Source: Desertivirga xinjiangensis
Lineage (GTDB): Bacteria; Bacteroidota; Bacteroidia; Sphingobacteriales; Sphingobacteriaceae
Length of the DNA stretch: 64,000 nt
NCBI RefSeq assembly: GCF_024436435.1
Contig: NZ_JAFMZP010000003.1
Location: 558,001 to 622,000, forward strand
Reading direction: 5' to 3'
Below, in pieces: positions 4,557-28,107 of this stretch (the stretch's first letter is position 1; every line of letters begins with the position of its first letter). The translations under genes were made by a program, and so were the position numbers. The notes under the pieces were generated by a model. The model saw only the letters and a list, made by a program, of their open reading frames with translations. It made no database searches and was not told the DNA's origin.

Positions 4557-5579
4557 ATGAAAGGAATTATCTGTTCAGTATTTCTTACTGTTGCTATCAA
4601 TGGAGCGATCTGTGCTCAGACGTCCAAACCATTATCAGCTCCATTTGGGGTTAATCTTGCGGGGGCGGATTTTGGTGCCAATGTGCCGGGTGTTTTTAAT
4701 AAGGATTATACTTACCCTACCGGGGCCGATCTCGATTATGTCAAATCGAAAGGGTTAACATTGATCAGACTTCCTTTTTTATGGGAACGTATGCAACCTG
4801 TTCTGGGTGAAAGTCTTGATGCTAAGGAAGTGGAACGTTTTACAGAAGTGATTGATGCTGCTGCGGAGAGAGGAATATTGGTTCTACCGGATATGCATAA
4901 TTATTGCCGTAGAAAAGTTGAAGGTGAATGGCTGATAATTGGTTCAGAAAGGGTGCCTGTTGAACAAGTAGCGAATGCATGGGCTAAGATTGCGGACTTA
5001 TTAAAAGATAAAAAAAATATTTGGGGATATGGCATCATGAACGAACCTCACGATATGCCTGCAGAAAATTCATGGTTTACTATTGCGCAAGCAATTATCA
5101 CCAGCATCAGATCTAAAGATTCCAAAACTGCCATAGTGGTAGGTGGCGATAGCTGGAGCTCTGCAGAGCGGTGGCCTTACTATAGCGGAAATTTGAAAAA
5201 TTTGAATGACCCCGCGAATAACTTGATTTTTGAAGCGCACATTTATTTCGATGAAAATTCGTCGGGAAGCTATAAATATTCCTATGAGAAGGAACGTGCT
5301 ACTGCAGAAACCGGGATTGTAAGGGCTATGCCGTTTGTTAAATGGTTGAAGGCTAATAATCTTAAAGGTTTTATTGGGGAGTATGGAGTTCCCGACAACG
5401 ATCCTCGTTGGTTGGTTACCCTGGATAAGATGCTCGATTACCTGCAAAAAAATGGGGTTAACGGAACTTATTGGGCCGCCGGACCATGGTGGGGAGATTA
5501 CCATCTTGCTGTACAGCCAAAAAATGGTATTGACCGTCCGCAAATGAAAGTTGTCAGCAGGTACCCTTCTGCAAAATAA
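4557..5579 (+). CDS. GH5 family endo-glycanase (cellulase-like), secreted
   Basis: 340 residues with a signal peptide (MKGIICSVFLTVAINGAICAQ). It shows the whole GH5 pattern: FGVNLAGADFG, LTLIRLPFLWERMQP, VLPDMHNYCRR, the acid/base Glu163 in MNEPHD, the conserved His in EAHIY (228), the nucleophile Glu275 in GEYGVPDND, and the aromatic WAAGPWW after it. The sequence is closest in style to the endoglucanase-type GH5 subfamilies with a YPT..DLDY insert, so beta-1,4-glucan or glucomannan is the likely target. No lipobox is present, so it is periplasmic or secreted, unlike its paralogue at 18032. It opens the rightward run of PUL genes. Subfamily is not assigned. Confidence 0.9.
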   Translation: MKGIICSVFLTVAINGAICAQTSKPLSAPFGVNLAGADFGANVPGVFNKDYTYPTGADLDYVKSKGLTLIRLPFLWERMQPVLGESLDAKEVERFTEVIDAAAERGILVLPDMHNYCRRKVEGEWLIIGSERVPVEQVANAWAKIADLLKDKKNIWGYGIMNEPHDMPAENSWFTIAQAIITSIRSKDSKTAIVVGGDSWSSAERWPYYSGNLKNLNDPANNLIFEAHIYFDENSSGSYKYSYEKERATAETGIVRAMPFVKWLKANNLKGFIGEYGVPDNDPRWLVTLDKMLDYLQKNGVNGTYWAAGPWWGDYHLAVQPKNGIDRPQMKVVSRYPSAK

Positions 5580-5593
5580 ATTAAAGATTCAAA

Positions 5594-5607
5594 TTGAATC
5601 GATTCAA
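5594..5607. repeat. 14-bp perfect palindrome between GH5 and dctA-like gene
   Basis: TTGAATCGATTCAA lies between the GH5 stop codon (5579) and the ATG at 5608. It touches the start codon, where it could form an RNA hairpin limiting ribosome access or serve as an operator. It may also be chance, as no second copy was noticed. Confidence 0.35.
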
Positions 5608-6906
5608 ATGAAAAGACTAGCGGGGAATCTCACGGTTCAGGTTATCGTGGCAATAACAACCGGAGTGATTGTAGGATTGTTAGCGCCGGGTTTTGCTGTG
5701 ACAGCAAAGTTACTAAGCGGCACATTTATTAAGTTAATAAATATGCTTATCGCCCCTATTGTATTCCTGACAATAGTTTTAGGGATAGCCAAAATGGGGG
5801 ATATGAAAAAGGTTGGACGTGTTGGGGGAAAAGCTTTATTATACTTCGAAATTATTACAACGTTAGCCATCATAATAGGGGTGATATTAGCAAATGTGAT
5901 AAAACCTGGCCAAGGAGTTTTACCTGTAGTAGATAGCGCAATTAAACTCCCTGCAAAAATACAGGCCGCTGATTTCAACTGGACAGAATTTCTTACTCAT
6001 ATAGTCCCTGAGAATATATTTGATGCATTTGCCAAGGGGGATATTTTACAGATTTTGTTATTTGCCGTACTATTTGCAACGGGTTTAAGTAAAATGGGCT
6101 CAGCCGGAGTTCCTCTTCTTGATACATTCGAAAGGATATCGCAGGCGCTATTTAATGTCATGAAACTGGTGATGAAACTAGCTCCGTTAGGAGCTTTTGG
6201 GGGGATGGTTTACACCATAGGAACTTATGGTATTCAAAGCCTTTTGCCCATGGCAAAAATTATGGGGGCGATTTATTTGACATGCGGCCTTTTCGTATTT
6301 GTTGTTCTTAACCTGATATGCAGATATTATAAAATTAGTTTGTGGAGATATCTCAAATTTATCCGGAGTGAGATATTGATCGTTTTGGGCACTTCGTCTT
6401 CTGAATCAGTTTTACCAAGTATGATGCAAAAAATGGAACGGTTTGGATGCTCGAAGTCGGTAGTCGGTTTGGTAATTCCAACTGGTTATTCATTTAACTT
6501 GGATGGTACTTCCATCTACCTGTCTATGGCTTTGATCTTTTTATGCCAGGTATTTCAAGTCGAGCTTTCAATTAGTCAGCAATTGACCGCAATTGGAATA
6601 TTGATGATCACCTCGAAAGGGGCGGCGGGGATTACAGGAAGTGGCTTTATAGTGTTAAGCTCAACCTTAGCAGCTCTTAAGATCATGCCTGTAGAAAATG
6701 TGGCAATTTTACTGGGAGTTGATCGATTTATGTCTGAAGCCAGGGCAATCACTAACCTTATCGGAAATGGAATAGCAAGTGTTGTTGTAGCTAACAGTGA
6801 AGGCGAATTCGATTATAATAAGTACAGCAATTTATTTTCGGGCATGCATGATGTGCATGTGATCTCCCAAAGTAAAAAGCTCGAACCGGCTAATGAACTA
6901 GTTTAA
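5608..6906 (+). CDS. Dicarboxylate/amino acid:cation symporter (DAACS, DctA/GltP type)
   Basis: 432 residues from the ATG at 5608. An earlier GTG-like frame at 5551 would overlap the preceding gene and adds no membrane segment. About eight hydrophobic segments are followed by the two family hairpin motifs: LGTSSSESVLPSMM and the NLDGTSIYLSM cation-binding sequence, then a TSKGAAGITGSGFIVLSSTL hairpin and the DRFMSEARAITNLIGN helix. This family imports succinate, fumarate, malate or acidic amino acids with sodium or protons. It starts 28 bp after the GH5 gene, so it is in the same transcript. A carboxylate transporter is unusual inside a PUL. It might take up an organic-acid substituent or a fermentation product, which is inference. 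Confidence 0.9.
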   Translation: MKRLAGNLTVQVIVAITTGVIVGLLAPGFAVTAKLLSGTFIKLINMLIAPIVFLTIVLGIAKMGDMKKVGRVGGKALLYFEIITTLAIIIGVILANVIKPGQGVLPVVDSAIKLPAKIQAADFNWTEFLTHIVPENIFDAFAKGDILQILLFAVLFATGLSKMGSAGVPLLDTFERISQALFNVMKLVMKLAPLGAFGGMVYTIGTYGIQSLLPMAKIMGAIYLTCGLFVFVVLNLICRYYKISLWRYLKFIRSEILIVLGTSSSESVLPSMMQKMERFGCSKSVVGLVIPTGYSFNLDGTSIYLSMALIFLCQVFQVELSISQQLTAIGILMITSKGAAGITGSGFIVLSSTLAALKIMPVENVAILLGVDRFMSEARAITNLIGNGIASVVVANSEGEFDYNKYSNLFSGMHDVHVISQSKKLEPANELV

Positions 6907-6916
6907 AATTTAAAAT

Positions 6917-7900
6917 ATGAAATTAACTAAAATCAAGCTGGTTTTATTGCTTGCGGTTTTCCTATCGACTGCCCTTGCTTGTTCCAAGAAAGCCAACACT
7001 GATGAATCGGTAAAGACTAACCCGGAGCCTCCAGCAAAGCCAAATCCTGAAGACCCGAGCACCGGTAAGAAAAATATTAAACTGTTTTTGATTGGGAACA
7101 GTTTCTCCCAAAATGCTACCACTTTCTTGCCTGCATTAGCAGCCGAGAATAGGCATAGTTTAACCATAGGACGTGCAGAACTGTCAAGTTTTTCACTCCA
7201 GCTGCATTGGGAGGCAGTGGTGAAAAATTTGGCGGATGCAAATGATGTGAATGGAAAACCTTACAAAGGAAAGTCACTAAAAGAATTGTTAGCTACGAAT
7301 TCCTGGGATATCATTTCTATTCAACAGGTTTCTGGAATGTCAGGTAAAGAAGGAACCTATCAGCCGTATCTGGGAAATCTTATTGAGTTCATAAAAAGAC
7401 ATCAGCCAAATGCCGAAATTGTTTTGCATCAAACCTGGGCATATCGGTCGGACGCTACGGTTTTTACGCAAATTTATGGTGGAAATGCCAGAACTGAACA
7501 GGAAATGTGGGAGAAATCAAGAGCAGCCTATCACTTATATGCTGAGCAATTTGGTTTAAGAATTATTCCCACCGGCGATGCTTTTTGGCTGGTAAGTTCA
7601 AATTCCAGATGGAAATATAATAAGGATCTGGAATTCAACTATTCCCAGCCTGTTTATCCTCAATTACCAGATCAATCCAATTCATTACATATTGGTTATT
7701 ATTGGAACGCCGGTACTTTTGGCTTTGATTCTCACCATGCAAATACGGCTGGTTGCTTCCTGGGATCTTTAACTTTCTATAACTTTCTCTTCAAAGAATC
7801 TCCCAGCACTCCTGGCTATACACCTGCTGGAATAGACTCAGAATTTGCTTCCTTCTTGAAATATGTAGCGCAGACGGCTGTCGATGCACTAAACAATTAA
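6917..7900 (+). CDS. DUF4886 SGNH-type hydrolase lipoprotein
   Basis: 327 residues. The signal peptide ends in the lipobox TALAC (Cys22), followed by a Pro-rich linker (TNPEPPAKPNPEDP). The domain begins at KLFLIGNSFSQNA, whose Ser62 sits in the block I position of SGNH esterases. It continues with SIQQVSG and VLHQTWAYRSD and ends with FDSHHANTAGCFLGSLTFYNFL, the likely catalytic Asp/His block. DUF4886 members are found among carbohydrate-active genes and are presumed esterases. It follows the dctA-like gene by 10 bp. The function is probably deacylation of the PUL glycan, by inference from fold and context. Confidence 0.8.
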   Translation: MKLTKIKLVLLLAVFLSTALACSKKANTDESVKTNPEPPAKPNPEDPSTGKKNIKLFLIGNSFSQNATTFLPALAAENRHSLTIGRAELSSFSLQLHWEAVVKNLADANDVNGKPYKGKSLKELLATNSWDIISIQQVSGMSGKEGTYQPYLGNLIEFIKRHQPNAEIVLHQTWAYRSDATVFTQIYGGNARTEQEMWEKSRAAYHLYAEQFGLRIIPTGDAFWLVSSNSRWKYNKDLEFNYSQPVYPQLPDQSNSLHIGYYWNAGTFGFDSHHANTAGCFLGSLTFYNFLFKESPSTPGYTPAGIDSEFASFLKYVAQTAVDALNN

Positions 7901-8318: not shown

Positions 8319-10211
8319 ATGAAAAAATTAACTTTTATTCTCCTATTATTAAATAGCGTATATGTTACCTATGCGCAAACAACTTATTATTGGGTTGGAG
8401 GAACCAATAATACCTGGTTAACTCCAGCCAATTGGAATACAAAATTAGATGCTACTGGAGCAGCCAGAAATTCTACTACTACATCTGATATTCTTATTAT
8501 TGATGGGAGCAATGTTGGAGGGGCAAGCCCAACAACCGGACCGGTAACAATTAATGTTCCAGCGTCAAATAACAATATTGGCCAGATAAAGCTAACAAAC
8601 AACGCAGACGTTAGTGTTTATTCAACTAATACAGCAAGTCCCTTTTATAGATCATTAACAGCTACTTCTTTGTTGGAAATAGATGCGTCAAGTAGTCTTA
8701 CTTTAAAAGATAACCCTGATCCAGCAATTACGTCATTTGTATTGTTAAGCCTTGGAACCGCTGCCACAGCGAGCATCAAAGGCAAGCTTGTGACGACAGG
8801 AAAGTATGCAAATCGTGTTTTAACGCAGAACTCAAGTATTTTGCCGTCTGTAGTTTTTCATTCAGGAAGCAGTTTACATACAGGTTCAGGAAGTCATCCT
8901 TTTGCCGGCAGTCCGGATTTATCAGTTATGTTAAGTGCCAATTCGACAATAACATATAATGGAGGATCTAATCCCTTTTCTGGAAATACCATTAATTTTT
9001 CTCCTGAAACGAATTATGTGTTTAATACGGCAATTACAGCTCCTTTCCATTTAACTTCGTCTAGCAGCATCGGTGATTTAACGATAAATGCTCCGGTTAC
9101 TACTAATAGAAGTGTATCAGTTACCGGTGTTTTAAGTCTCAACTCCAAGCTTACTATTCGTACAGGCGACGTAGTAACGCTGACCAATACAGGAACTTTT
9201 GGCGGAGTATGGGGTGCTTCGTCTTATATAGTAACCAATTCAAATTCGACCAACGGCTTGAAAGGAGTTTTGGAGGTTAGCCAATTAAATGCCGCCAAAT
9301 TGATACCCGTAGGTTCTGCATCCAACTATCTTCCAATCGTTATTAATCCGCAAAATACTTCTGATTTTGCGATAACTGTGTTCGAAGGCATCACAAACAC
9401 TGCTACGCCCAATGGCCCTGCATTTACATCAGAGCAGAAGAAAAGGGTACTGGATGTGGTTTGGGATGTTTCGCGTTCGTCCGGAACGGGTACGGCTGAC
9501 ATCACTTTTGCCTGGCCCGATGCAGTAGAAGGTTCTGATTTTTCTGCATATCATAGCTCCGGAGTTGGTATCTCAATATTTGATGGGACCAGTTGGGGCG
9601 CTTATGTGGGTAGCGGCGATCATATTAATAATTCGGCTACCGCAACATTCGGCACATTCGCTCAGTTCAGTGTTGGTAATGCAAGTACAACGCTTCCGGT
9701 TACCTTGATAGACTTTGCCGGAAAAGTGGACAAAAGAGGAGTGGAAATAAGCTGGAAAGCGTCAGAGCTAAACCTGGCCCATTACAATCTGCAACGGTCA
9801 AGTAATGGTAAGCTATTTAACACAATCGCGACAATTACACCGAATACAGTGTCTTCTTACATCTATAGAGACCTGGTGCCAGAAAGCGGAATCAACTACT
9901 ATCGTTTAATAAGTGTAGATAAAGACGGAACTCAAAGTACATCCGATCCTATTTCTGTCAACTTCTTTGCCAATTCAACACTTTCTTTCTATCCTAACCC
10001 GATTAGAGACAATGTTTTGAATATTAACGGCTTGGCGGCTGGCGATGTGATTAGAATTATAAACCTGAGCGGATCTCTTTTGCTTCATTACAAAACGAAT
10101 GGAAGTGGTGTAGAATCTATAAATGTGCATGATCTCGCGTCTGGTACGTATATCTTAATTGTGGAAAATGCTGGCAGGCTTAAAACTTCGGACAGGATCA
10201 TAAAGATATAG
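8319..10211 (+). CDS. Large secreted surface protein with type IX secretion sorting domain
   Basis: 630 residues with a signal peptide (MKKLTFILLLLNSVYVTYAQ). The next part (TYYWVGGTNNTWLTPANWNT) is the sort of opening found in Bacteroidota adhesin-like beta-helix proteins, and a long Ser/Thr/Asn-rich beta-repeat region follows to about residue 460. A fibronectin-like segment (VEISWKASELNLAHYNLQRSSNGKLF to YYRLISVDKDG) precedes the C-terminal type A sorting domain: LSFYPNPIRDNVLNI, GDVIRIINLSG and LASGTYILIVEN. The protein is therefore exported across the outer membrane by the type IX system and anchored or released. No catalytic residues are recognised. Glycan binding at the surface is a guess from its position immediately before susC. 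Confidence 0.85.
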   Translation: MKKLTFILLLLNSVYVTYAQTTYYWVGGTNNTWLTPANWNTKLDATGAARNSTTTSDILIIDGSNVGGASPTTGPVTINVPASNNNIGQIKLTNNADVSVYSTNTASPFYRSLTATSLLEIDASSSLTLKDNPDPAITSFVLLSLGTAATASIKGKLVTTGKYANRVLTQNSSILPSVVFHSGSSLHTGSGSHPFAGSPDLSVMLSANSTITYNGGSNPFSGNTINFSPETNYVFNTAITAPFHLTSSSSIGDLTINAPVTTNRSVSVTGVLSLNSKLTIRTGDVVTLTNTGTFGGVWGASSYIVTNSNSTNGLKGVLEVSQLNAAKLIPVGSASNYLPIVINPQNTSDFAITVFEGITNTATPNGPAFTSEQKKRVLDVVWDVSRSSGTGTADITFAWPDAVEGSDFSAYHSSGVGISIFDGTSWGAYVGSGDHINNSATATFGTFAQFSVGNASTTLPVTLIDFAGKVDKRGVEISWKASELNLAHYNLQRSSNGKLFNTIATITPNTVSSYIYRDLVPESGINYYRLISVDKDGTQSTSDPISVNFFANSTLSFYPNPIRDNVLNINGLAAGDVIRIINLSGSLLLHYKTNGSGVESINVHDLASGTYILIVENAGRLKTSDRIIKI

Positions 10212-10304
10212 TTTGCTATAGCTTGGAAGGAACTCCAATCAATAAGCGCTTTGCTGCGCTCATAGGTATGATATAAAACGACTCAAATTAACCAATATAA
10301 ATAT

Positions 10305-13300
10305 ATGATAAACTTTGTAAGTCTACTTAGAAATGAACCAGGACACAGCTTGCGGGTTGATGTTGTTAAGGATGGGGGAGTTGAGCGCTTGAGTAAAGTC
10401 CCCCTAAGGCTTCCTCAGCGAATTTTACTTGTCTGCGTACTGATTATATTCCTGGCAAGTGTTGCTTTTTCGCAAAACGCAGGAAATCATGTTGCCGGCA
10501 AAGTTACAGATACGAGCGGGGAGCCTTTACCCGGGGTTAGTGTCAAGATTAAGAATAGTAATATCAGTACCACTACCGATGGAAATGGTATGTATAAGAT
10601 TGCTGTCCCGGACGCAAAAACGATCTTGGTATATACATATTTGGGTTTTACTACACAGCAAAAGGAAGTAGGGACCAATCGAACGATCAATATTCAACTG
10701 CAAGAATCAAGTAATAAGCTGGATGAAGTTGTAGTGATCGGCTACGGTTCTGTGAGCAGGAGAGACTTACAAGGGTCAGTTGCTTCCATAAAGGGCGAGG
10801 ATCTTGTAAAAACTAATGTTACGAGTGTTAACGAGGCATTACAGGGAAGGTTGGCGGGTGTCCAGGTAAATAAGGGTGACGGAGCTCCTGGTTCTGGAGT
10901 TAGTATATTGATCAGAGGAGCAAATTCCTTTACAGGAAGCGACCCTTTATATGTTGTTGATGATGTACCCGTCCTTTCTGCTTCAACCCCCAAGGGAGGA
11001 GAAGATAATTTTCAAACAACCAATCCCTTGTCTTTTTTAAATCCTCAGGACATAGAAAGCATTGACGTATTGAAGGATGCGTCTGCAACAGCAATTTACG
11101 GATCCCGGGGATCCAACGGCGTGGTATTGATTACTACAAAAAAAGGAAAACAAGGCAGAGATAGAGTGGAATTCACTTCTGACATCAGTCTGTCTAGAAT
11201 TTCTAAAAAAGTAGATATGCTGAATGCATCTCAATTTGCAAGTTTTCAAAATGAAGCGTTTTATAATTCCCATATTTATGAAGGTACTCAACTTAATGTC
11301 CCCTATCCAGGAGAGGAGGCATTCAGTTCTGTTGCTAACAGAAGAGTATATTTCCCTGGTCCTGCCGATTATGCCAGCGGGCTAAAGAATACCTTATATC
11401 CAGACGGGTTTACAGGAACTGACTGGTTAAATGAAATTTTGCATACAGGTTCTTTGCAGAATTATACACTGCGTTTTTCCGGCGGAGATGCGAAAGGTTC
11501 CTATTCAATATCAGGAAATTTGACGGATCAGCAAGGGATAATTAAGAAAACTGGTTTTGACCGTTACGGTCTACAACTGAATCTTTATAGGAACATCAGC
11601 AGATTTTGGCAGATTGGTACAAACACTAATTTCACATTTAATAAGTTTACACTTGGCAAAACAAATACTGCTGGCACACAGCCAAGTCTCATAAGCTCAA
11701 CCCTGTTTTATCCGTCTACCCAACCTGCCAATTATAACATAAATGTAATAGGTGAAGACATTCTTAAAAACCTGAACTTATTTACTCCAACAAGTGCGAT
11801 AGATGGCTCTACAGATATCACAAATACACTTCGGATATTTAGCAGTTCGTTTGTTCAAGCTAATTTAAGCAGTAAATTAAATTTCCGGCAGCGCCTCGGT
11901 TATAATTATAACACCAGCAAACGCTCGACCTACTATGATAGAAATACCGGAGAGGGCTGGAGTACTAACGGACGTGCTTCTGTTAATGAGAATTACTATT
12001 CGCAAATCGTTTCCGAATCAATACTTACTTACAAAAACACATTAAACAAAAAACATAGCATCAATGCAGTAGCGGATTTTAGTTATGAAATCAATACGGA
12101 GGGTAATGCAGGTTTAAGTGCAACCAATTTTCCTAATGATATCACTAAGTACGATAATATCGGAGCTGGCTTACAGCAAAACAGACCTCAAAGCTATAAG
12201 GGTGAAAGCCGGTTATTGAGTTATTTAGGAAGAGTTATTTATACTTATGGTGGGAAGTATTCAACAACGGTAAATTTCAGGGCCGATGGATCCAGTAAGT
12301 TTGCAAAAGGAAATAAGTTTGGATATTTTCCGGGGGTAGCAGTAGCCTGGACAGCATCGAAAGAACCATTTATTGCTAATCTTAACGTCTTTTCTAATTT
12401 GAAAGTTCGGGGCAGTGCAGGGGCTACAGGTAACCAGGGAATAGGACCTTATGGTACGCAGTATCAAATGTCAGCTTATAACGTCCCGTTAAATGGGGCT
12501 TTGCAAAGTGGTTACGCAATTAATACCGATTTAGGGTTGGTAGATCCTAATTTAAAGTGGGAAACTACTGTTCAATATGACGCAGGCCTTGATATTGGTT
12601 TCTTTGGAGATAGATTAAACTTCACATTTGATGCTTATCAAAAAACTACCTCAGATTTATTACAAGCTGTAAAAATAGCTACCAGTACAGGCTTTAGCAC
12701 AATGTTGACTAATACAGGTACTGTAGAAAATCGAGGGCTTGAGTTTGCTGTTAATGGCAGGATCTCGCAAACCCCTAATTTTAAATGGAACGTAAACGCA
12801 AACCTTTCATTTAACAGAAATAAAATTACTGCTTTGCCTGCAGGTGACCAATTTGCTCAGCGGCTGTGGTATCAACTAGATGACATATTTATTCAGCGGG
12901 TAGGGGAGCCTATCGGGGCAATTTACGGTTATCTAGAAGATGGTTACTATGATAATCTCGCAGAAGTAAAGGCTGATCCGCAATTTAGGAATTCAACTGA
13001 TGATTTTTTGCTGTCACGTATTGGCGAAGTTAAATACAAAAACTTCGATAACGAGTCGTCCAGTATAAGTGTTACTGATCGTCAAATTATAGGAAATACC
13101 AATCCTGATTTTACCTACGGTATCACGAATGATTTTAGCTATAGGAAATTTAGTCTAAGCATTTTTTTCCAGGGGGTTCAGGGAGGTGATATATTGAATG
13201 CAAATTTATTAAAAATAGGAATGGGGCAAACTTATAATATTCCACAGTTTGCATATGATTCCCGATGGACACCTGAGTCAGCCGCCAGAGCACGATGGCC

Positions 13301-13595: not shown

Positions 13596-13616
13596 TAACC
13601 ATTTATAACAAATAAC

Positions 13617-15317: not shown

Positions 15318-15344
15318 TAACTAAATTCTAAATAAAGTTAGACA

Positions 15345-17270: not shown

Positions 17271-17285
17271 TCGAGTTTTAAATAC

Positions 17286-17320: not shown

Positions 17321-17333
17321 ATCCTATATACAA

Positions 17334-18020: not shown

Positions 18021-18031
18021 CCGTTTACCAA

Positions 18032-19096: not shown

Positions 19097-19128
19097 ACAC
19101 ACCTTAAGAATTGGAGATGAGATTTAAT

Positions 19129-21102
19129 ATGAACAAACTATATTTATTGTCTGCAGTTTTTCTACAAAGTTTTTTTGCAGCTGCTGAAGTTCGAGTACCA
19201 AAATTATTTGGCGATGGTATGGTTTTGCAAAGAAATCAATCGATACCGGTTTGGGGATGGGCAAATAAAGGCGAAACGGTGATTGTCAAATTTAATAATC
19301 AAACTAAGTCAACTAAGGCAGATAAGACCGGGAAGTGGAAAGTTGAATTAAGCCCTGAAGCTGCAGGAGGTCCTTATCAATTAGCAATAAAGGGCAAGAA
19401 CTCTATAGTTATCAATGATGTTTTAGTTGGTGAAGTATGGCTTTGTTCAGGACAGTCGAATATGGAGTGGTCTGTGCGATTAAGTAAAGATGCTGAAAAA
19501 GAAATAAGGGAAGCAAAATATCCTTCAATCCGACATTTTAAAGTGCCGAATACCACGTCGAAAGATCCGATGGATGATTTGACCGGGGGAAGCTGGAAGC
19601 AAGCAAACTCTCAGCATACAGCAGACTTCTCAGCTGTAGGTTATTTTTTTGCACGTGAACTCTATAGAAAATTAAACGTTCCAATTGGATTAATCAATTC
19701 TTCCTGGGGAGGAACGGATATTGAAACCTGGATAAGCAGACCAGCCCTCGAAAGCAGCGACATTTTTAAGTCGATGATGAAATCTATGCCCTCCTCTGCA
19801 GATCTTGAATACGTGATACGTGAGCGAAAAAACGAACTTACCCGCCGGGTAAAAGAATTGCAGGGCGAGCTTCCCAGGGATTCAGCTTCAGCAGTTGCTT
19901 TTAAAGAACCGGGGTTTGATGATACGAAGTGGCCAAAAATTGCCGTTCCTGGTGTTTGGGAACAATCCATTGAGAACCTTGACGGAGTGGCGTGGTTGCG
20001 GGCAACTATTGTACTGGATGGAAAGCATGCTGGTGAGGCCGCTGAACTCAGGTTGGCAATGATTGATGATTCTGACATCACCTACGTCAACGGCATTCGA
20101 GTCGGTGCTATGAAAAACGCTTATAATTCGCAAAGAGTTTATGGTATTCCAGAGGGTATTTTGAAAGCCGGACGCAATACTATTGCAGTGCGGGTGGAAG
20201 ACACTGGTGGGGGAGGCGGTATATATGGAAGTCCCGAAGACATGAGGCTCATATTAGATGGTGAAATAATACATTTAAGTGGACAATGGTCTTTTCAACT
20301 GGAATCGCTATCGGTAGCTTCAAGTAGCAGTAACACGGGGGATCCAAATAGTTTTCCTACTTTACTGTATAATGGAATGATCAATCCGCTTGTACCTTAT
20401 GGAATCAAAGGAGCAATATGGTATCAAGGTGAAAATAATGCTTCAAGGGCGTTTCAATACAAAGAAGCCTTCCCTTTGATGATTCATGATTGGCGAAAAA
20501 ACTGGGGCCAGGGAGATTTTCCGTTCTATTTTGTGCAGCTTTCAAGCTGGATTGCCTCCAGCGGAGATAGCAAGCGAGGCAGTGCATGGGCTGAATTGCG
20601 GGAGGCTCAAACAGAAACCTTGAAATTACCTAACACGGGTATGGCAGTAACAATAGACATTGGCGAAACGAACGATATTCATCCCAAAAACAAACAGGAT
20701 GTAGGTAAGCGACTGGCGGCTATTGCCTTAAACCAATTGTATAATACAGGAACGTTATTTCAGGGTCCTTCGTTTGCCAGTTTAAAAGTATCCGGAAATA
20801 AGGTAACAGTAGACTTTATTAATATCGGATCAGGCCTTGCCGTGAGCGATAAATATGGCTACGTTAAAGGGTTTGAACTAGCCGGAGCTGATCAGCAGTT
20901 CTACTATGCTAAAGGTTCTATTGAAGGGGGACAGGTGGTGCTTTCCAATGAAAATGTGCCTAAGCCAGTTGCAGTAAGGTATGCCTGGGCTGATGATGCT
21001 GGCGATGCTAATTTATTTAATAAAGAAGGGTTTCCTGCAGTTCCGTTCCGGACAGATACCTGGAAAGGGATCACGCAAAATGTTAAATACAGCATCAGAT
21101 AA
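19129..21102 (+). CDS. SASA-family (sialate O-acetylesterase-like) carbohydrate acetylesterase
   Basis: 657 residues from the ATG at 19129, which gives a signal peptide (MNKLYLLSAVFLQSFFAAAE). Nearer ATG and TTG codons at 19117 and 19111 are possible. The sequence starts with the family hallmark VRVPKLFGDGMVLQRNQSIPVWGWA, then VWLCSGQSNMEWSV (nucleophile Ser110), a jelly-roll insertion at about 230-390, GIKGAIWYQGENNASR, and the catalytic Asp/His in IDIGETNDIHPKNKQDVG. The sialate name is historical: in PULs this family removes acetyl groups from plant or bacterial polysaccharides. It is co-transcribed with GH5 and GH78, which points to an acetylated, rhamnose-containing target. Confidence 0.88.
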   Translation: MNKLYLLSAVFLQSFFAAAEVRVPKLFGDGMVLQRNQSIPVWGWANKGETVIVKFNNQTKSTKADKTGKWKVELSPEAAGGPYQLAIKGKNSIVINDVLVGEVWLCSGQSNMEWSVRLSKDAEKEIREAKYPSIRHFKVPNTTSKDPMDDLTGGSWKQANSQHTADFSAVGYFFARELYRKLNVPIGLINSSWGGTDIETWISRPALESSDIFKSMMKSMPSSADLEYVIRERKNELTRRVKELQGELPRDSASAVAFKEPGFDDTKWPKIAVPGVWEQSIENLDGVAWLRATIVLDGKHAGEAAELRLAMIDDSDITYVNGIRVGAMKNAYNSQRVYGIPEGILKAGRNTIAVRVEDTGGGGGIYGSPEDMRLILDGEIIHLSGQWSFQLESLSVASSSSNTGDPNSFPTLLYNGMINPLVPYGIKGAIWYQGENNASRAFQYKEAFPLMIHDWRKNWGQGDFPFYFVQLSSWIASSGDSKRGSAWAELREAQTETLKLPNTGMAVTIDIGETNDIHPKNKQDVGKRLAAIALNQLYNTGTLFQGPSFASLKVSGNKVTVDFINIGSGLAVSDKYGYVKGFELAGADQQFYYAKGSIEGGQVVLSNENVPKPVAVRYAWADDAGDANLFNKEGFPAVPFRTDTWKGITQNVKYSIR

Positions 21103-23803
21103 GCAAGGTTTGAGAGTGGGAGTTAAAAAAATAGCGTTCCTGATCCTGATGGTGCTGTCATGGGTTACTCAAGTGCGGTCACAAAGTAATCCTTTGAATC
21201 TTAGATGCGAGTTCCTGGAAAATCCGATAGGCATTGACGAACCTTCACCTAGGCTTACCTGGAACATGGCTGATTGTAAAGTGGGTTGTTCCCAAGCGGC
21301 TTTTGAAGTAATCGTTGCTACCGATTCGGCGGGCTTAAAGTCAGAAAAGGGCAGAGTTTGGGGATCCGGAAAACAGAGCTCGGCGTTTATGAAGTTATCC
21401 TTGCCTGATAATCTCCTGAAGCCTTTCACCCGGTATTTTTGGTTGGTGCGGGTTTGGAATAAGGATAACGGTTCGGGCTCAGCAGTCGCTTCGTTCGAAA
21501 CCGGTTTGTTAAATAGCAAAAATTGGAAAGGAGCCTGGATAACAGATGCTAATGATATACACAAAAAGGAAGCTCCATATTTCAGAAAAGTTTTTAACGC
21601 TCTTAAAGTTGTAAAGTCAGCACGTGCATATATTGCGGCGGCGGGATTATTCGAACTTTATTTAAACGGGGAGAAGGTTGGAAACCATCGCCTGGATCCT
21701 ATGTTTACTCGTTTTGATCGAAGAACACTCTATCTCACGCATGATGTTACATCATTTATAAGGAACGGTCAGAATGCAGTGGGGGTTTTGTTGGGCAATG
21801 GCTGGTTCAATCATCAGTCAACTGCTGTCTGGTTTTTTGATCGGGCAAGCTGGCGTGCTAGACCAAAATTTTGTTTAGACATCCGCATTACTTATATGGA
21901 TGGCTCAGTGGAAACAATTTCATCGGATAATACTTGGAGAACTTCTTCGGGGCCATTGGTCTTTAACAGTATCTACACAGCTGAACATTACGATGCACGT
22001 TTGGAGCATCCGGGTTGGAATACTGTATCATTTGTAGATACAACCTGGAAAAATGCAATTTATACCTCTGCTCCTTCACAAAATATTGTGTCTCAGCAAG
22101 TGCGGCCAATTCGTGATGTAGAGCAGATAAAACCCGTAAGTTTTAGAAAGGTCAGCCCCAATGTTTACCTGTTTGATCTGGGCCGGAATATTTCGGGTGT
22201 GAGTGAGATTAAGGTAAAGGGAATCGAAGGGACAACTCTGCGCTTAATACATGCTGAGCGGTTGCGTAAAGACGGGCGGGCAGATCAATCCAATATCGAC
22301 TACCATTATCGTCCTACCGACGATAAAGATCCTTTTCAGACGGATATATTTGTTTTGTCGGGGAAAAAGGAAGATTCTTTTCGTGCTAGATTCAACTACA
22401 AGGGTTTCCAGTACGTTGAAGTTGTAAGCGACAAACCCGTTGTACTTACAAAGGAAAGTCTTACAGCCTATTTCATGCATAGTGATGTGCCCGCTAAGGG
22501 AAGCATAAAGTCATCAAGTGATGTGCTCAATAAGATCTGGCTGGCTACCAATAATTCTTATTTGTCTAATTTATTTGGATATCCAACAGACTGTCCTCAG
22601 CGGGAGAAGAACGGCTGGACGGGGGATGCACACATTGCTATAGAAACTGGTTTGTATAACTTCGACGGTATTACTATATATGAAAAGTGGCTTGCTGACC
22701 ATCGCGATGAGCAACAGCCTAACGGAGTTTTGCCGGCGATTATTCCCACCGCTATATGGGGTTATGATTGGGCAAACGGACCGGATTGGACTAGCACCAT
22801 CGCTATTATTCCATGGAATATTTATTTGTTTTATGGGGATGAAAGGATTCTCTCTCAAAATTACGAAAATACTAAAAGGTATGTTGATTATATTAATAGC
22901 CGAAGCCCATCAGGATTAACCGATTGGGGATTAGGTGACTGGATTCCTATTAAATCGATTGCAAACAAAGAATTAACCACTTCCATCTATTTTTATCTAG
23001 ATGCATCTATTTTGGCGAAGTCAGCAAGAGTACTGGGCAAGCAAGAAGATGCGAAAAAGTATGAAGCCTTAGCCGAAAAGGTAAAGCAGGCCATTAATTC
23101 GAAATTTCTGGATCGTAAAACAGGAATTTATTGTTCAGGATTACAAACCGAATTAAGTGCACCACTGTACTGGGGCATAGTGCCGGCCGAATTAAAGTCG
23201 ACAGTAGCCAAAAAGCTTGCTGAGAGGGTTGAACGAGATCAAAGTATCGATGTTGGTTTGCTTGGCTCGAAAACTGTCCTTAATGCTTTAAGTGAGAATG
23301 GTTACGCTGAACTGGCTTACAAGCTGGCTTCTAGAGAAACTTATCCTTCCTGGGGCTGGTGGATTAAAAATGGTGCAACCACCTTGTATGAAAACTGGAA
23401 AATAGAAGGTAGTTCGGATATTTCACTTAATCATATTATGTTTGGTGAAATAAGTGCATGGTACTACAAGGCTTTGGGGGGAATCTTTCCAGATCCGTCG
23501 GCCCCAGGCTTTAAGCATATCGTTTTGAAACCGAACTTCGTTGGTGGCCTGAAACATTTTGAAGCAAAACATGAAACTCCATATGGGACTTTAATCTCTG
23601 CATGGAAAAGCCAAGGAAAGCAGCTTGAATATGTAGTAACTATTCCACCGGGAAGCACTGCCTCCCTAAGTCTTTCGGCGCAAAGTGTCACAGGAAAAAA
23701 AATGAATTCCGGAAATACAAGGTTGAAATTTAATGATCAGGAACCGGGGCTTTTTAAGGTAGCTCTTGCATCCGGTAGGTACATATTTTCCATAAAGCTT
23801 TGA
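21080..23803 (+). CDS. GH78 alpha-L-rhamnosidase, secreted
   Basis: 907 residues from ATG 21080, which overlaps the previous gene by 23 bp; GTG at 21116 is an alternative. A hydrophobic leader (IAFLILMVLSWVTQVRSQ) precedes PLNLRCEFLENPIGIDEPSPRLTW, the standard GH78 opening. The N-terminal beta domains (AYIAAAGLFELYLNGEKVG, VGVLLGNGWFN) lead to the (alpha/alpha)6 barrel with CPQREKNGWTGDAH, carrying the probable general acid Glu509, and GWWIKNGATTLYENW with the second catalytic Glu. A C-terminal beta domain (FPDPSAPGFKHIVLKP) completes the fold. It removes non-reducing alpha-L-rhamnose. Rhamnose is not part of plain glucomannan, so this gene narrows the possible substrates of the PUL. Confidence 0.9.
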   Translation: MLNTASDKQGLRVGVKKIAFLILMVLSWVTQVRSQSNPLNLRCEFLENPIGIDEPSPRLTWNMADCKVGCSQAAFEVIVATDSAGLKSEKGRVWGSGKQSSAFMKLSLPDNLLKPFTRYFWLVRVWNKDNGSGSAVASFETGLLNSKNWKGAWITDANDIHKKEAPYFRKVFNALKVVKSARAYIAAAGLFELYLNGEKVGNHRLDPMFTRFDRRTLYLTHDVTSFIRNGQNAVGVLLGNGWFNHQSTAVWFFDRASWRARPKFCLDIRITYMDGSVETISSDNTWRTSSGPLVFNSIYTAEHYDARLEHPGWNTVSFVDTTWKNAIYTSAPSQNIVSQQVRPIRDVEQIKPVSFRKVSPNVYLFDLGRNISGVSEIKVKGIEGTTLRLIHAERLRKDGRADQSNIDYHYRPTDDKDPFQTDIFVLSGKKEDSFRARFNYKGFQYVEVVSDKPVVLTKESLTAYFMHSDVPAKGSIKSSSDVLNKIWLATNNSYLSNLFGYPTDCPQREKNGWTGDAHIAIETGLYNFDGITIYEKWLADHRDEQQPNGVLPAIIPTAIWGYDWANGPDWTSTIAIIPWNIYLFYGDERILSQNYENTKRYVDYINSRSPSGLTDWGLGDWIPIKSIANKELTTSIYFYLDASILAKSARVLGKQEDAKKYEALAEKVKQAINSKFLDRKTGIYCSGLQTELSAPLYWGIVPAELKSTVAKKLAERVERDQSIDVGLLGSKTVLNALSENGYAELAYKLASRETYPSWGWWIKNGATTLYENWKIEGSSDISLNHIMFGEISAWYYKALGGIFPDPSAPGFKHIVLKPNFVGGLKHFEAKHETPYGTLISAWKSQGKQLEYVVTIPPGSTASLSLSAQSVTGKKMNSGNTRLKFNDQEPGLFKVALASGRYIFSIKL

Positions 23804-23818
23804 CATGGGCTATTACGA

Positions 23819-24694
23819 TCAAACAAATACACGTACTCCTGAAAAGTTTTCTCTGAACTCTTTGGGGGTACAACCTTTTTTCTTTTTAAATAGCCTGTTG
23901 AAGTTAGAGATATTGTTAAATCCACATTGATAAGAGATTTCAGTCACAGAATGGGTAGTATCAATGAGCATACGAGATGCATGGCCAAGACGTATTTCGT
24001 TTAAGCTATTTATAAATGTATTACCAGTTCGTTTCTTAATAAATCGACTAAAAGATTCCTCGGTCATGTTTACCAGCCTGGCGATATCATTTAAGGAGAT
24101 TTGTTTATTATAATTTTGATTCATAAAGTCAAAAGCCTTATCCAGACGCCGGCTGTTATAGTTGAAATTATTATTATTCAAAAAGGATGTATCAGAGAGG
24201 GCGATCATGTTCCTGCTTGTAGACAAGTCATGCAATAAACTAATGAGGTCCATTACAGAATCGAACCCGCTTCTTTGGCTTAGTGATAAGAGCCTTGGAA
24301 GCACAACTTGAATAGCTTCTTTTGGATAACAAACCCCTCTTGCGCTCATTTCGAACATTTTTTTAATAAAACTTAGCTGGTTCCTGGATAAAAACTTTTC
24401 GTCAAAAAGGTCTTTATGCCATTGAATAGTGATTTCGGTGATTTCTGTCTTACAATCATGAGTAAACCAAGCATGAGGAATATTAGGACCGACTAAAACA
24501 AGCTCAATGTCATCAATAATATCAATATGGTCTCCGATTATTCGCTTTGCTCCTCTGGCGTTTAAAATCAAATTCAACTCGTACTCGTCATGAAAGTGCA
24601 AAGGGAAATTGAATTCTTTTTTGACCCGCGAAAAAATAGTGAAGCAATCGTTAGGTGTCAGGGGAGTAATCTCCTTGGTTATGCTATTATTCAT
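23819..24694 (-). CDS. AraC-family transcriptional regulator
   Basis: 291 residues. The N-terminal half is a cupin sensor (FPLHFHDEYELNLILNARGAKRIIGD, LVLVGPNIPHAWF), typical of sugar-responsive AraC proteins. The C-terminal hundred residues hold two helix-turn-helix motifs: ISLNDIARLVNMTEESFSRFIKKRTGNTF and SVTEISYQCGFNNISNFNRLFKKKKGCTPKEFR. It ends just 15 bp from the convergent GH78 stop codon and is divergent from the SSS symporter. It is the only PUL-type regulator visible here, with no hybrid two-component sensor or ECF/anti-sigma pair, so it is the best candidate to control this PUL. Confidence 0.92.
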   Translation of the reverse strand: MNNSITKEITPLTPNDCFTIFSRVKKEFNFPLHFHDEYELNLILNARGAKRIIGDHIDIIDDIELVLVGPNIPHAWFTHDCKTEITEITIQWHKDLFDEKFLSRNQLSFIKKMFEMSARGVCYPKEAIQVVLPRLLSLSQRSGFDSVMDLISLLHDLSTSRNMIALSDTSFLNNNNFNYNSRRLDKAFDFMNQNYNKQISLNDIARLVNMTEESFSRFIKKRTGNTFINSLNEIRLGHASRMLIDTTHSVTEISYQCGFNNISNFNRLFKKKKGCTPKEFRENFSGVRVFV

Positions 24695-25003
24695 TTTTGG
24701 CTATAATATAGTTTAGTAATCGGGGATAATTGGATGGTATAAATTTATATTTTATTAAACTTTTTACAAATTATGTCAGAAAATCTACAGGCTTTGGATA
24801 AAAAAGTATTAGTCTAATTGTGAGTCAATATGGAAATTTGATTTTGTAAACCAATCTAAATAATGGCTTTTCAAAACTTTTACTAAGTGCTTAATTGAAT
24901 TGAGCAAACCGGCAGATATCAAAGACTAAGTGAATAGCAAAAAGATCATCAAAACCTGCAAAACTTATAATCATATAAAATTTAGAAGAGCTAAATAAAC
25001 ACA
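24695..25003. promoter_or_regulatory. Divergent araC / SSS symporter regulatory region
   Basis: 309 bp. It contains AAAAGTATTAG (24802-24812), AAACCAATCT (24848-24857) and ACTAAGTG twice (24882-24889 and 24925-24932). The first, second and third elements also occur upstream of the GH5 gene at 4557, and AAAAGTATTA to ACTAAGTG spans exactly 80 bp in both places. The AraC protein encoded on the left is the natural candidate to bind here. No TAnnTTTG consensus is seen, consistent with an activator-dependent promoter. Confidence 0.5.
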
Positions 25004-26830
25004 ATGAAATTACAATTGATAGATATCTCTATAATACTATTTTACCTGGTAATGATGGTACTCATTGGTTGGTTTTATAAAAATAAAGCTAAGCAAAATA
25101 AAGAGAGTTACCTGATGGGAGGTAAAAAACTTCCCTGGTATATGCTTGGTTTAAGTGATGCTTCAGACATGTTTGATATCAGCGGTACCATGTGGATGAT
25201 CTCGCTGTGCTTTGTATATGGTATGAAGAGTATCTGGATTCCCTGGCTGTGGCCCGTATTTAATCAGGTATTTAACATGATGTTCTTAGCAAAGTGGTTA
25301 AGGCGATCAAATGCTGATACGGGGGCAGAATGGCTTGCTACAAGGTTTGGTGTAAAGGGTAAGGGAGTGAAAGCATCTCATAACATTGTCGTAGCATTTG
25401 CACTTATAAGCTGTCTGGGCTTTCTGGCATATGGGTTTGTTGGTCTTGGCAAATTTATTGAAGTTTTTGTTCCGTGGGATATGGTGAAAGCATATATTCC
25501 TTTCAACATACCAGCCCAATATGTTGCACATTTTTATGGGATAATATTTACCCTGTTCGCCATGTTCTATTCCATATTAGGAGGGATGCATAGTATTGTT
25601 GTTGGCGATTTTATCAAATATATTATTATGACCGTGGGTTGCATTGCTATTGCAATTATTGCAGTGATGCATCTGAACGGAAAGCAACTGAATGTACCTG
25701 AAGGATGGTCCGATCCATTTTTCGGCTGGACATTAGATCTGGACTGGAGCAATATTATAGTCGATGCTAATAAAAAAATAGAAGAGGATGGTTATGGGTT
25801 ATTTGGCATCTTTTTCATGATGATGTTGTTTAAGGGTGTTTTTGCCAGCCTTGCGGGCCCAGCGCCTAGTTATGATATGCAAAAGGTGCTGTCGACGCGA
25901 AGCCCCAAAGAAGCATCTAAAATGACAGGGTTCGTATCTATTGTACTCTTACCTATTCGCTATTCAATGATCATAGGTTTGACTGTCCTGGCCCTGTTAT
26001 ACTATGATCAACTAAATATCTCAACTTCTGAAGGTGCTGATTTCGAGCGAATTTTGCCTGCGGCAATCAATGCTTTCTTACCTGTTGGAATTTTAGGCCT
26101 TGTCTTAACCGGTTTGCTCGGAGCTTTTATGGGAACGTTTTCCGGAACGCTTAATGCAGCGCAGGCATATATCGTTAACGATATTTATTTAAAATATGTT
26201 AACCCCAATGCTCCAACAAAAAAAATCATACGGTTAAACTACGTAGTGGGCGTTCTGGTAGTATTTATCGGGGTGGTGCTTGGTTTTTTTGCCAAAGACG
26301 TTAATAGCATACTTCAGTGGATTGTTGGTGCTTTATATGGAGGATATATAGCTTCAAATATGCTTAAATGGTATTGGTGGAGGTTTAACGCCAACGGCTT
26401 CTTCTGGGGAATGAGCGCAGGTATTATAGCAGCATTAATTTTTCCTTTCATCTTCGTCGGGGTTCTTCCTCTGTATGTGTGGCCCCTGCTGTTTTTTGTT
26501 TCTTTAACTGGTTGTATAGTAGGAACCTATACTGCGCCTGCTACAGATCTGACTATACTGAAAAGTTTTTACAGCAACGTTAGGCCATGGGGTTTTTGGG
26601 GGCCTGTTCATGCGGCTGTAATCGCTGAGAACCCCCAATTTAAACCGAATGGAAGGTTCAAAGTGGATATGTTTAATGTGGTTCTGGGTATGATCGCTCA
26701 GTGTTGTTTAACTGTGTTGCCCATGTACCTGGTTTTGTGGATGAAGCTTCCTTTGCTGGCAACGATCATAATTCTCGCACTCATTGTGCTTATATTAAAA
26801 AGGACCTGGTGGGACAAACTCGAAGATTAA
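25004..26830 (+). CDS. Sodium:solute symporter (SSS family), probable sugar/oligosaccharide importer
   Basis: 608 residues with about 13-14 hydrophobic segments and no signal peptide, so an inner-membrane carrier. SSS features include the first helix [51 protein letters not shown], the [16 protein letters not shown] segment and the [26 protein letters not shown] region containing the sodium-site serines. SSS carriers couple sodium entry to uptake of sugars or sialic acid. It lies 47 bp before the GH130 phosphorylase, and together they form an import-and-phosphorolyse pair. Mannosylglucose or a related disaccharide is the probable cargo, by inference from that neighbour. Confidence 0.9.
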
Positions 26831-26877
26831 TTAACAAAAGTATAAAACCTTGTAAGGACGAAGATAAAATAGATAAT

Positions 26878-28107
26878 ATGAGTTTTGAAGAAAAATTAAA
26901 TGCTTTGCAGCAAAGGCATTCCGAATTGATCACCAGGAGAAACTGCAAGCGGGACTTAGGCAACGGTGTATACGATCGTTATGAGTATCCGGTGCTTACT
27001 GCAGCTCATACTCCAATTGAATGGCGGTTTGACTTAAATCCTGAGTCAAATCCTTTTTTAATGGAACGGTTTGGAATTAACGCTACCTTCAATTCAGGTG
27101 CAATTAAATTAAACGATAAGTATCTAATGGTGGTGCGTGTGGAAGGATTGGATCGCAAATCATTTTTTGCGGTAGCGGAAAGTCAGAATGGTATAGATAA
27201 TTTTAAGTTTTGGGAATATCCCATAATAATGCCAGAAACTGATGTTCCTGATATCAATGTTTACGATATGCGTTTAGTTAAACATGAGGATGGGTGGGTA
27301 TATGGATTGTTTTGTACAGAAAGGCGTGATTCGAGTGCTTCGGAAGGAGATCAGTCTGCTGCTATTGCCCAATGCGGAATAGCACGTACAAAAGATCTTG
27401 TAAAATGGGAAAGACTGGCTGACCTTAAAACACCATCTCCCCAGCAACGGAATGTGGTACTCCATCCGGAATTCGTTAATGGAAAATATGCTTTCTATAC
27501 TCGTCCTCAGGATAGTTTTATCGAGGCGGGGAAAGGCGGGGGAATAGGTTTTGGATTGAGTGAGGGAATAGAAAATGCAGTGATATCTGAAGAGATCGTT
27601 ATTGACAAAAAGGTTTATCATACCGTTTACGAAGCTAAGAATGGTTTGGGACCTGCGCCAATTAAAACTCCATATGGTTGGCTGCATTTGGCACATGGCG
27701 TGCGTAACACTGCTGCAGGTTTAAGATATGTGTTATACATGTTCATGACAAGTTTGACGGATATAACAACCGTTACGCACAAACCAGCAGGCTATTTTAT
27801 GGCTCCAGAAGGCGAAGAAAGAATAGGGGATGTATCGAATGTTCTATTTAGCAATGGGTGGATCGCTGATGATGACGGAACCGTCTTTATTTATTATGCG
27901 TCCTCGGATACCCGTCAGCATGTAGCTACCTCAACAATTGAGAGATTAACGGATTATGTGATCAACACTCCAGAAGATAAGCTTCGTTCTGCAAAGTCGG
28001 TAGAAACAGTTAACGAGCTCATAAGAAATAACAAGTTTCCATCAGAGAGGAACAAAAAAGTCATTGAAAATACGGATCAATGCGAAAATCTGTGGAAAAG
28101 GGGCTGA
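26878..28107 (+). CDS. GH130 4-O-beta-D-mannosyl-D-glucose phosphorylase
   Basis: 409 residues from the ATG at 26878. The longer frame from 26701 overlaps the symporter and is not real. The protein is cytoplasmic, with no signal. It closely resembles the Bacteroides mannosylglucose phosphorylase type: [57 protein letters not shown], the catalytic Asp130 in [50 protein letters not shown], and [21 protein letters not shown]. The reaction is Man-beta-1,4-Glc plus phosphate to mannose 1-phosphate plus glucose, saving ATP. Usual partners (mannobiose 2-epimerase, GH26 mannanase) are absent, suggesting the disaccharide comes from a mixed Glc/Man polymer rather than pure mannan. Confidence 0.9.

Follow-up and report, generated by a model that had tools for sequence, protein, structure and literature searches.

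A conserved polysaccharide utilization locus of Desertivirga xinjiangensis combining a mannan-type import and phosphorolysis core with GH5_5-like endoglucanases and sugar-oxidizing genes

Composition of the locus and its relation to beta-mannan utilization

A stretch of 64,000 nucleotides from the soil bacterium Desertivirga xinjiangensis (Sphingobacteriaceae; contig NZ_JAFMZP010000003.1, positions 558,001 to 622,000; “the window”) contains a polysaccharide utilization locus (PUL) of a conserved variant type that is outside the beta-mannan PUL kind but resembles it at the import and phosphorolysis end. A susC and a susD gene are adjacent and are accompanied by genes for carbohydrate-active enzymes and a regulator (Table 1). 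With a probability of about one half, the substrate is an O-acylated, alpha-L-rhamnosylated beta-1,4-linked glucose/mannose heteropolysaccharide, most likely from bacteria or other microbes. The PUL is intact and, with about 36 kb in total, longer than the region from the start of the first GH5 gene to the end of the GH130 gene (4557 to 28107) that the initial annotation had covered. Its upstream part runs about 7.5 kb beyond the window (stretch L099) and comprises genes for a GH5_26-like enzyme, a TIM barrel protein of family PF01261 (TIM288), a Gfo/Idh oxidoreductase, a PhyH protein, an MFS transporter, and a pyrroloquinoline quinone (PQQ)-dependent dehydrogenase, the gene of which begins outside the window, about 1.85 kb before its first position.

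Families were assigned by profile searches (Pfam, NCBIfam) of the proteins in the window, with scores in bits. The two GH5 proteins, the GH78 protein, the SASA esterase, and the GH130 protein of the initial annotation all scored far above chance (Table 1), but that gene list was incomplete, missing the GH140-type gene, the GDSL and DUF4886 genes, and the upstream oxidative cassette. Both GH5 proteins of the window (GH5a and GH5b), which we take to be members of CAZy subfamily GH5_5, possess the NEP and GEYG motifs and are nearest to RBcel1, 4lx4, Thermoascus EGI, and Xanthomonas-type endoglucanases. The GH5 protein upstream of the window, presumably of subfamily GH5_26, is closest to 8bn7, 4hty, and 5a8m. 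The GH78 protein has the domain set of an alpha-L-rhamnosidase and, in the alignment, both glutamate residues of 3w5m that we assume to be catalytic. The GH140-type protein contains a PF13204 domain with an apiosidase (8t9w) as nearest solved enzyme and is a candidate apiosidase; PF13204 is not confined to loci of this type, with 15 of 28 strong matches in 16 genomes located in these loci and 13 elsewhere. The SASA protein, presumably of family CE20, is closest to 7kmm (521 bits), 9ega, and 9h4u (a carbohydrate esterase, 484 bits). The GDSL protein and the DUF4886 protein, the latter SGNH-related as we assume, are two candidates for SGNH-type esterases. In some related loci an SGNH hydrolase domain is fused to GH5_5 (L063:10646-13009; L076:12749-20000, continuing into L077), which ties deacylation to chain cutting. 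Finally, the GH130 protein is clearly related to BfMGP of GH130_1 (602 bits, with about 382 residues aligned) and, as the initial annotation had proposed, should phosphorolyze mannosyl-beta-1,4-glucose (Man-Glc).

Evaluation of this gene content needs to consider the relationship to beta-mannan PULs, for which those of the genomes G002 and G027 served as references. SusC and SusD are about 40% identical to their counterparts in both, the AraC-type regulator 72% (G027), the SSF symporter 79% (G002), and the GH130 protein 71 to 79%. A core predicted to serve binding, import, regulation, and phosphorolysis is thus shared and appears to have been reused with other polymer-cutting enzymes. The reference PULs contain GH26 and an epimerase, that of G002 also GH5_7 (the reference sequence itself), and none of GH5_5, GH140, or GH78. 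In turn, no GH26, GH5_7, or epimerase was found in profile scans of the proteins of the D. xinjiangensis locus, and close relatives of the reference GH26, GH5_7, and epimerase, defined by at least 35% identity to the G002 or G027 proteins, occurred in 0 of 35 tabulated GH5_5 loci and in 0 of 76 loci from a scan of named genomes. A plain beta-mannan PUL, against which the initial annotation had already argued, was rejected: of the endo-mannanases (GH26 or GH5_7) and the mannobiose 2-epimerase, searched for along with the GH130_1 that is present, the locus has none, and the related loci in the table have no close relative.

The previously noted absence of GH26 and epimerase holds for the locus; the genome as a whole encodes a single GH26, which is part of a different PUL (about 39 kb upstream of the window), and a single AGE-family epimerase with 25% identity to the mannan-PUL epimerase. 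Because the locus has neither mannanase nor epimerase, the GH26 lies elsewhere, and the epimerase is distant, Man-Glc probably originates straight from the polymer. In this respect the enzyme would differ from BfMGP, with which it shares the GH130_1 sequence family: the source of the disaccharide here is probably the polymer itself and not epimerized mannobiose.

Characterized PULs of Bacteroidota for beta-mannan or (galacto)glucomannan, those of Muricauda MAR_2010_75 and PULs 7 and 8 of Segatella copri, have SusC/SusD and a GH130 Man-Glc phosphorylase in common with the locus, according to the consulted parts of their descriptions. A Segatella GH130 splits mannosyl-beta-1,4-glucose into mannose-1-phosphate and glucose (PMC12704710), Segatella PUL 7 contains a CE7 esterase, and the Muricauda PUL contains a GH5_26 like the upstream enzyme of D. 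xinjiangensis. Unlike these PULs as described there, the D. xinjiangensis locus is without GH26, GH5_7, GH27, and epimerase and possesses instead the GH5_5 pair, GH78, GH140, the CE20-like esterase, and the oxidative cassette.

Conservation in related genomes

Of 400 genomes searched within the order, 23, D. xinjiangensis (G000) included, encode a relative of GH5a at an E value of 1e-60 or below. The table of 35 rows contains 21 of these genomes (G207 and G241 were not taken) and 14 rows from the named-genome scan, which were built from 15 of its 76 loci, with L111 merged into the row of D. arenae (G001). Same-genome duplicates, loci without any other module, short contigs, and near-repeats holding modules (including L121, L124, L126, L130, L132, L136, L138, L146, and L149) were omitted, and in G422, G024, and G033 the GH5 gene itself was below the threshold of the table. 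In loci of at most 21 kb, more distant genes can be missed, and many loci are related by descent and do not count as independent events.

Among the 35 rows, GH140 was present in 27, GH130_1 in 20, GH78 in 11, the PQQ dehydrogenase with the lipoprotein TIM barrel protein in 7, and a family of 836 to 864 residues (“847-aa”) in 15. When all 76 loci of the named scan were counted separately, GH140 was in 28, GH130 in 20, GH78 in 8, the PQQ dehydrogenase in 8, and the 847-aa family in 17; the absences seen in the table (of GH26, GH5_7, and epimerase, and of GH78 or the PQQ dehydrogenase beside the 847-aa family) held there, too. In D. arenae, SusC/SusD, a surface glycan-binding protein, GH5a, GH5b, GH140, GDSL, the CE20-like esterase, GH78, AraC, SSF, GH130, DctA, and the lipoprotein TIM protein are encoded in matching order, with an identity of 38% for the glycan-binding protein and 48 to 88% for the others; no counterpart of the ThuA, DUF4886, type IX-secreted, or second glycan-binding protein was found in the D. 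arenae stretch.

Related loci were found in Mucilaginibacter, Siphonobacter, Proteiniphilum, Barnesiella, and Bacteroides xylanisolvens. The loci of B. xylanisolvens XB1A (L141) and of Barnesiella/Bacteroidales (L145, L147, and L148) share SusC/SusD, GH5_5, GH140, GH130_1, GH78, and a CE20-like protein with that of D. xinjiangensis; all four differ from it by a GPH-type importer and by having no PQQ, TIM, or Gfo/Idh genes in the stretch taken. The XB1A locus (L141:1-20418) encodes in addition a DUF5040 protein and a GH2 protein the Ig domain of which is of mannosidase type. No published characterization of this PUL was found in the literature searched.

Members of the 847-aa family (for instance, L118:1401-3944, L063:13778-16321, and L129:14966-17476) are usually encoded near an L-arabinose/fucose-isomerase-like protein and an MFS transporter. 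Two members scanned had no Pfam match, and the mean predicted local distance difference test score (pLDDT) of an AlphaFold2 model was 56, which is too low for a reading of the fold. The family could represent a new family of glycosidases.

Genes surrounding GH130 in relatives provide clues to the side groups of the polymer. Adjoining GH130 of P. nanyangensis are genes for an L-rhamnose isomerase (496 bits, short of the 647 required), an FGGY-type kinase (its 50 bits to the rhamnulokinase model fall well short of the cut-off), a bifunctional rhamnulose-1-phosphate aldolase (944 bits, above the cut-off), and a lactate-dehydrogenase-like protein. RhaI is also present in the locus of P. ureilyticus and RhaI/RhaB in that of Rufibacter, and D. 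xinjiangensis encodes relatives of RhaI (73%) and of the aldolase (83%) outside the locus. In P. helvus and P. xixiisoli, an operon about 5 kb downstream of GH130 encodes a FucP permease (367 bits, above the cut-off, as scored in P. helvus) together with a dehydratase, SDRs, an FAA hydrolase, a rhaM-family protein, an amidohydrolase, and a lactate dehydrogenase. Between GH130 and this operon are genes for a BNR_4 protein (59 bits) and for a GH88/GH76-like protein of marginal score (27.7 and 28.4 bits, just above the cut-offs); the P. xixiisoli relatives of these two P. helvus proteins are 93% and 86% identical, and both loci also hold GH29 genes. These operons suggest decoration with 6-deoxy sugars that vary, as in bacterial polysaccharides, and a mannose/glucose part that stays constant while the 6-deoxy sugars change would agree better with a family of microbial heteropolysaccharides than with a single polymer of plant walls. 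The esterified glucose/mannose polymer with alpha-L-rhamnose predicted by the initial annotation fits the rhamnose catabolism genes beside the loci of P. nanyangensis, P. ureilyticus, and Rufibacter; its example, acetan, is not supported, as described below.

Proposed degradation pathway and alternative substrates

From the gene content we infer activities, localizations, an order of steps, and an end product as follows. The polymer would be held and imported by SusC/SusD and the two glycan-binding proteins, with the lipoprotein GH5b cutting the chain at glucosyl residues outside of the cell. In the periplasm, the CE20-like, GDSL, and DUF4886 proteins would remove acyl groups, GH78 alpha-L-rhamnose, and GH140 another sugar of the branches; shortening of the chain would fall to GH5a and the GH5_26-like enzyme. 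An endoglucanase leaving glucose at the reducing end would yield Man-Glc from alternating or mixed mannose/glucose stretches. The freed disaccharide would be imported and phosphorolyzed by GH130, with no need for a mannanase or a mannobiose epimerase, and the oxidative arm (PQQ dehydrogenase, lipoprotein TIM protein, MFS transporter, cytosolic TIM288, and Gfo/Idh oxidoreductase) may handle one released sugar or end residue.

Several observations weigh against such a heteropolysaccharide. GH78 could act on small rhamnosides, and the apiosidase as nearest solved relative of the GH140-type protein is not explained by a polymer of glucose, mannose, and rhamnose. GH130 is also present in plain mannan and glucomannan PULs, and no matching polymer, a rhamnosylated Man-beta-1,4-Glc polymer included, was named among the literature matches listed. 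GH5_5 alone is not diagnostic: 48 of the 76 loci are without GH140 and 56 without GH130, some of these absences being due to the end of a contig or of the 21-kb stretch, and with many loci holding the GH5 gene alone, it is no marker of the locus type by itself. Only 11 of 35 rows have GH78, and none of these has the 847-aa protein as well; nor do the two co-occur in any of the 76 loci, in which the PQQ dehydrogenase and the 847-aa protein are likewise never found together. The value of 0.0004 calculated for a chance lack of co-occurrence of GH78 and the 847-aa family is no real probability, given shared ancestry and the genes that loci of at most 21 kb can miss. The probability was set at one half because the GH88-like assignment in relatives is marginal and because most GH5_5 relatives of the named scan are without the other modules.

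Alternatively, the locus may serve a plant hemicellulose, an acetylated (galacto)glucomannan or a mixed wall fraction of beta-glucan and glucomannan, with GH78 and GH140 only clearing accompanying rhamnosides and apiosides. The SusC/SusD, AraC, SSF, and GH130 proteins in common with mannan PULs agree with this possibility, as does the gut or digester origin recorded for some relatives. It also weighs against a microbial polymer that GH5_26 and GH130 occur together in a characterized marine galactoglucomannan PUL, according to the part of the report consulted (PMC9860051). Nevertheless, a hemicellulose is unlikely: the lack of close GH26, GH5_7, and epimerase relatives in all tabulated and named loci speaks against it, the proteins scanned in the locus include no alpha-galactosidase family, related loci have operons for the catabolism of rhamnose or fucose nearby, and in Bacteroides and Barnesiella GH130 remains accompanied by GH78 and CE20-like genes.

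A pectin (rhamnogalacturonan-II) or apiosyl-glycoside locus, in which GH140 would release apiose (377 bits to the solved apiosidase) and GH78 rhamnose, is very improbable and was rejected, because no pectin lyase, GH28, GH105, or GH106 family was found among the scanned proteins, and two endo-beta-1,4-glucanases and a Man-Glc phosphorylase do not fit; GH130 and GH140 are not mentioned in the main text of an RNA-seq study of XB1A on pectin (PMC4769552).

Equally improbable and rejected is a locus for acetan, xanthan, or gellan: beta-1,4-glucan-cutting GH5 enzymes, esterases, and a rhamnosidase would suit rhamnosylated exopolysaccharides in general, and P. helvus and P. xixiisoli have the BNR_4 and marginal GH88/GH76-like proteins adjoining GH130, but no lyase, GH88, or GH105 family, no other uronic acid enzyme family such as for glucuronic acid, and no alpha-glucoside enzyme family was found among the scanned proteins of the locus, and to our knowledge these three polymers, acetan included, contain no Man-beta-1,4-Glc for a GH130_1 enzyme.

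The oxidative genes

The PQQ dehydrogenase of D. xinjiangensis is followed by a lipoprotein with a xylose-isomerase-like TIM barrel, and the TIM288 gene adjoins that of the Gfo/Idh oxidoreductase, which reached 383 bits to the levoglucosan dehydrogenase model (below the equivalog cut-off of 650). Gfo/Idh and PhyH accompany the PQQ dehydrogenase in six of seven rows, G077 being without both in the stretch taken. Catabolism of D-apiose was considered for the Gfo/Idh and TIM pair on account of GH140 and rejected, with levoglucosan dehydrogenase as best NCBIfam model and no apiose model listed. The best AlphaFold2 model of the lipoprotein TIM protein had a pLDDT of 83 and the other four 60 to 71; Foldseek matched it to sugar isomerases and epimerases at 9 to 17% identity, with UlaE as the best and YcjR, a 3-keto-glucoside 4-epimerase, among the 50 listed. 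This likeness of the predicted fold does not settle the reaction.

In the levoglucosan route, LgdA, LgdB1, LgdB2, and LgdC perform 3-oxidation, elimination, hydration, and reduction (PMC7676230, PMC10066097), and these steps are carried out by Gfo/Idh and PF01261 proteins (PMC10066097), as far as the consulted parts of these reports describe it. This suggests that the PQQ/TIM/Gfo-Idh cassette may be a periplasmic version of a 3-oxidation/elimination route. A Gfo/Idh oxidoreductase beside a PF01261 TIM protein is common to both; different from the levoglucosan route as described, the first steps would be periplasmic if the PQQ dehydrogenase and the lipoprotein TIM protein act in it, and an MFS importer and the embedding in a PUL are added. 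In full, the PQQ dehydrogenase would oxidize a terminal sugar at its C3, a beta-elimination by the lipoprotein TIM protein would follow, the MFS transporter would import the keto-sugar, TIM288 would hydrate it, and Gfo/Idh would reduce it to a normal hexose, with undescribed Man-beta-1,4-Glc microbial heteropolysaccharides with varying 6-deoxy sugars (rhamnose or fucose), eaten also by human-gut Bacteroides, as substrates. As a joint claim, all this is rather improbable.

The oxidative genes may instead form a separate sugar-oxidation operon, from aldose to aldonate, that is a mere neighbor outside of polymer breakdown, and the odds of this are only somewhat below even. Glucose-type PQQ enzymes commonly produce acids, 28 of the 35 tabulated loci are without a PQQ dehydrogenase in the stretch examined, and G145, a genome with GH5_5 and GH140, has a strong PQQ dehydrogenase match on another contig. 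Against a mere neighborhood, six genomes (G000, G001, G350, G102, G077, and G160) have a single strong PF01011 match each, and it is located in this locus; of the ten others searched, nine had no strong match, G145 being the tenth. In Mucilaginibacter the PQQ dehydrogenase gene directly follows SSF and GH130, and a Siphonobacter metagenome-assembled genome (Cytophagales) keeps the PQQ dehydrogenase, GH5, SusC/SusD, TIM288, Gfo/Idh, PhyH, the lipoprotein TIM protein, and GH140 in another order. A further point for a separate operon is that D. xinjiangensis has no pqqE above the cut-off, so that it would depend on scavenged PQQ; uptake of PQQ by nonproducers is described in the consulted part of PMC12124388. 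Among the literature matches listed for a PQQ dehydrogenase in a PUL, the string “polysaccharide utilization loc” had 0 occurrences, which is no proof of absence.

Further genes were observed in or beside related loci. A GMC oxidoreductase is paired with gluconate-2-dehydrogenase subunit 3 next to GH140 in four loci from Sphingobacterium or its genus group (e.g., L079:6846-9108), and downstream of GH130 in D. arenae is a gene for a PF06439 protein of the 3-keto-disaccharide-hydrolase type (L023:3874-4518, 31 bits).

Other genes of the window

The roles of the DctA, type IX-secreted, and ThuA proteins inside the locus are uncertain. DctA is at this site only in the two Desertivirga loci (2 of 35 rows) and could, speculatively, import a dicarboxylic acyl group freed by the esterases. 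Two tandem tRNA-Asp(gtc) genes (28194 to 28488) are located directly 3' of GH130 and are a possible insertion point of the PUL.

Table 1. Genes of the locus within the window, with predicted products and the matches on which these predictions are based
Predicted product	Position	Strand	Evidence
PQQ-dependent dehydrogenase with inserted cytochrome c domain, 3' end	1..280 (L099:16149-18281)	+	PF01011 548 bits (no other strong match in the genome), PF13442
Lipoprotein with xylose-isomerase-like TIM barrel, conserved partner of PQQ dehydrogenase	309..1229	+	PF01261 44 bits; lipobox-like N-terminus
ThuA-family protein, system membership uncertain	1247..2830	-	PF06283; 52% relative in G077 locus
GH140-type enzyme (apiosidase-like), secreted	2873..4291	-	PF13204 352 bits; best solved relative 8t9w apiosidase, 377 bits
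GH5a, GH5_5-like endo-beta-1,4-glucanase, secreted	4557..5579	+	PF00150 155 bits; 4lx4 265 bits, RBcel1 (4ee9) 256 bits; NEP and GEYG motifs
DctA-type C4-dicarboxylate transporter	5608..6906	+	NF002461 560 bits, above cut-off; G001 74%; 2/35 rows
DUF4886 lipoprotein, SGNH-like by motif, possible esterase	6917..7900	+	PF16227 120 bits; motifs GNS, DSHH
630-aa protein with type IX secretion tail, no other family	8319..10211	+	PF18962; no match in G001 stretch
SusC (TonB-dependent transporter)	10305..13595	+	PF07715, PF13715
SusD lipoprotein	13617..15317	+	PF07980, PF14322; lipobox-like
Surface glycan-binding lipoprotein 1	15345..16448	+	PF18329 73 bits
Surface glycan-binding protein 2	16467..17270	+	PF18329 88 bits
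GDSL/SGNH esterase, secreted	17334..18020	+	PF13472 61 bits; DGVHMN motif
GH5b, GH5_5-like endo-beta-1,4-glucanase, lipoprotein, likely surface	18032..19096	+	PF00150 140 bits; RBcel1 (4ee9) 244 bits; lipobox-like N-terminus
CE20-like acetyl esterase (SASA), secreted	19117..21102	+	PF03629 84 bits; 7kmm 521 bits
GH78 alpha-L-rhamnosidase, secreted, start codon uncertain	21116..23803	+	PF17389 351 bits and four companion domains; 3w5m catalytic Glu kept
AraC-type regulator	23819..24694	-	PF12833 83 bits; 72% to AraC of G027 mannan PUL
SSF symporter, likely inner-membrane disaccharide importer	25004..26830	+	PF00474 79 bits; 79% to G002 mannan PUL
GH130_1 Man-Glc phosphorylase	26878..28107	+	3was (BfMGP) 602 bits, 5ay9 513 bits; PF04041 75 bits

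Biological meaning

The locus is a conserved and apparently uncharacterized gene cluster with a sugar-oxidizing arm that is absent from the mannan PULs compared. It indicates that the mannan-PUL core of SusC/SusD, AraC, importer, and phosphorylase is reused with another set of cutting enzymes. If the proposed substrate is correct, a Man-Glc polymer would be used by soil and gut Bacteroidota alike, and named genes and strains (D. arenae, M. aquatilis, and B. xylanisolvens XB1A) would be at hand for finding it. The locus also makes testable whether there are PULs that use periplasmic oxidation and elimination of sugars beside hydrolysis.

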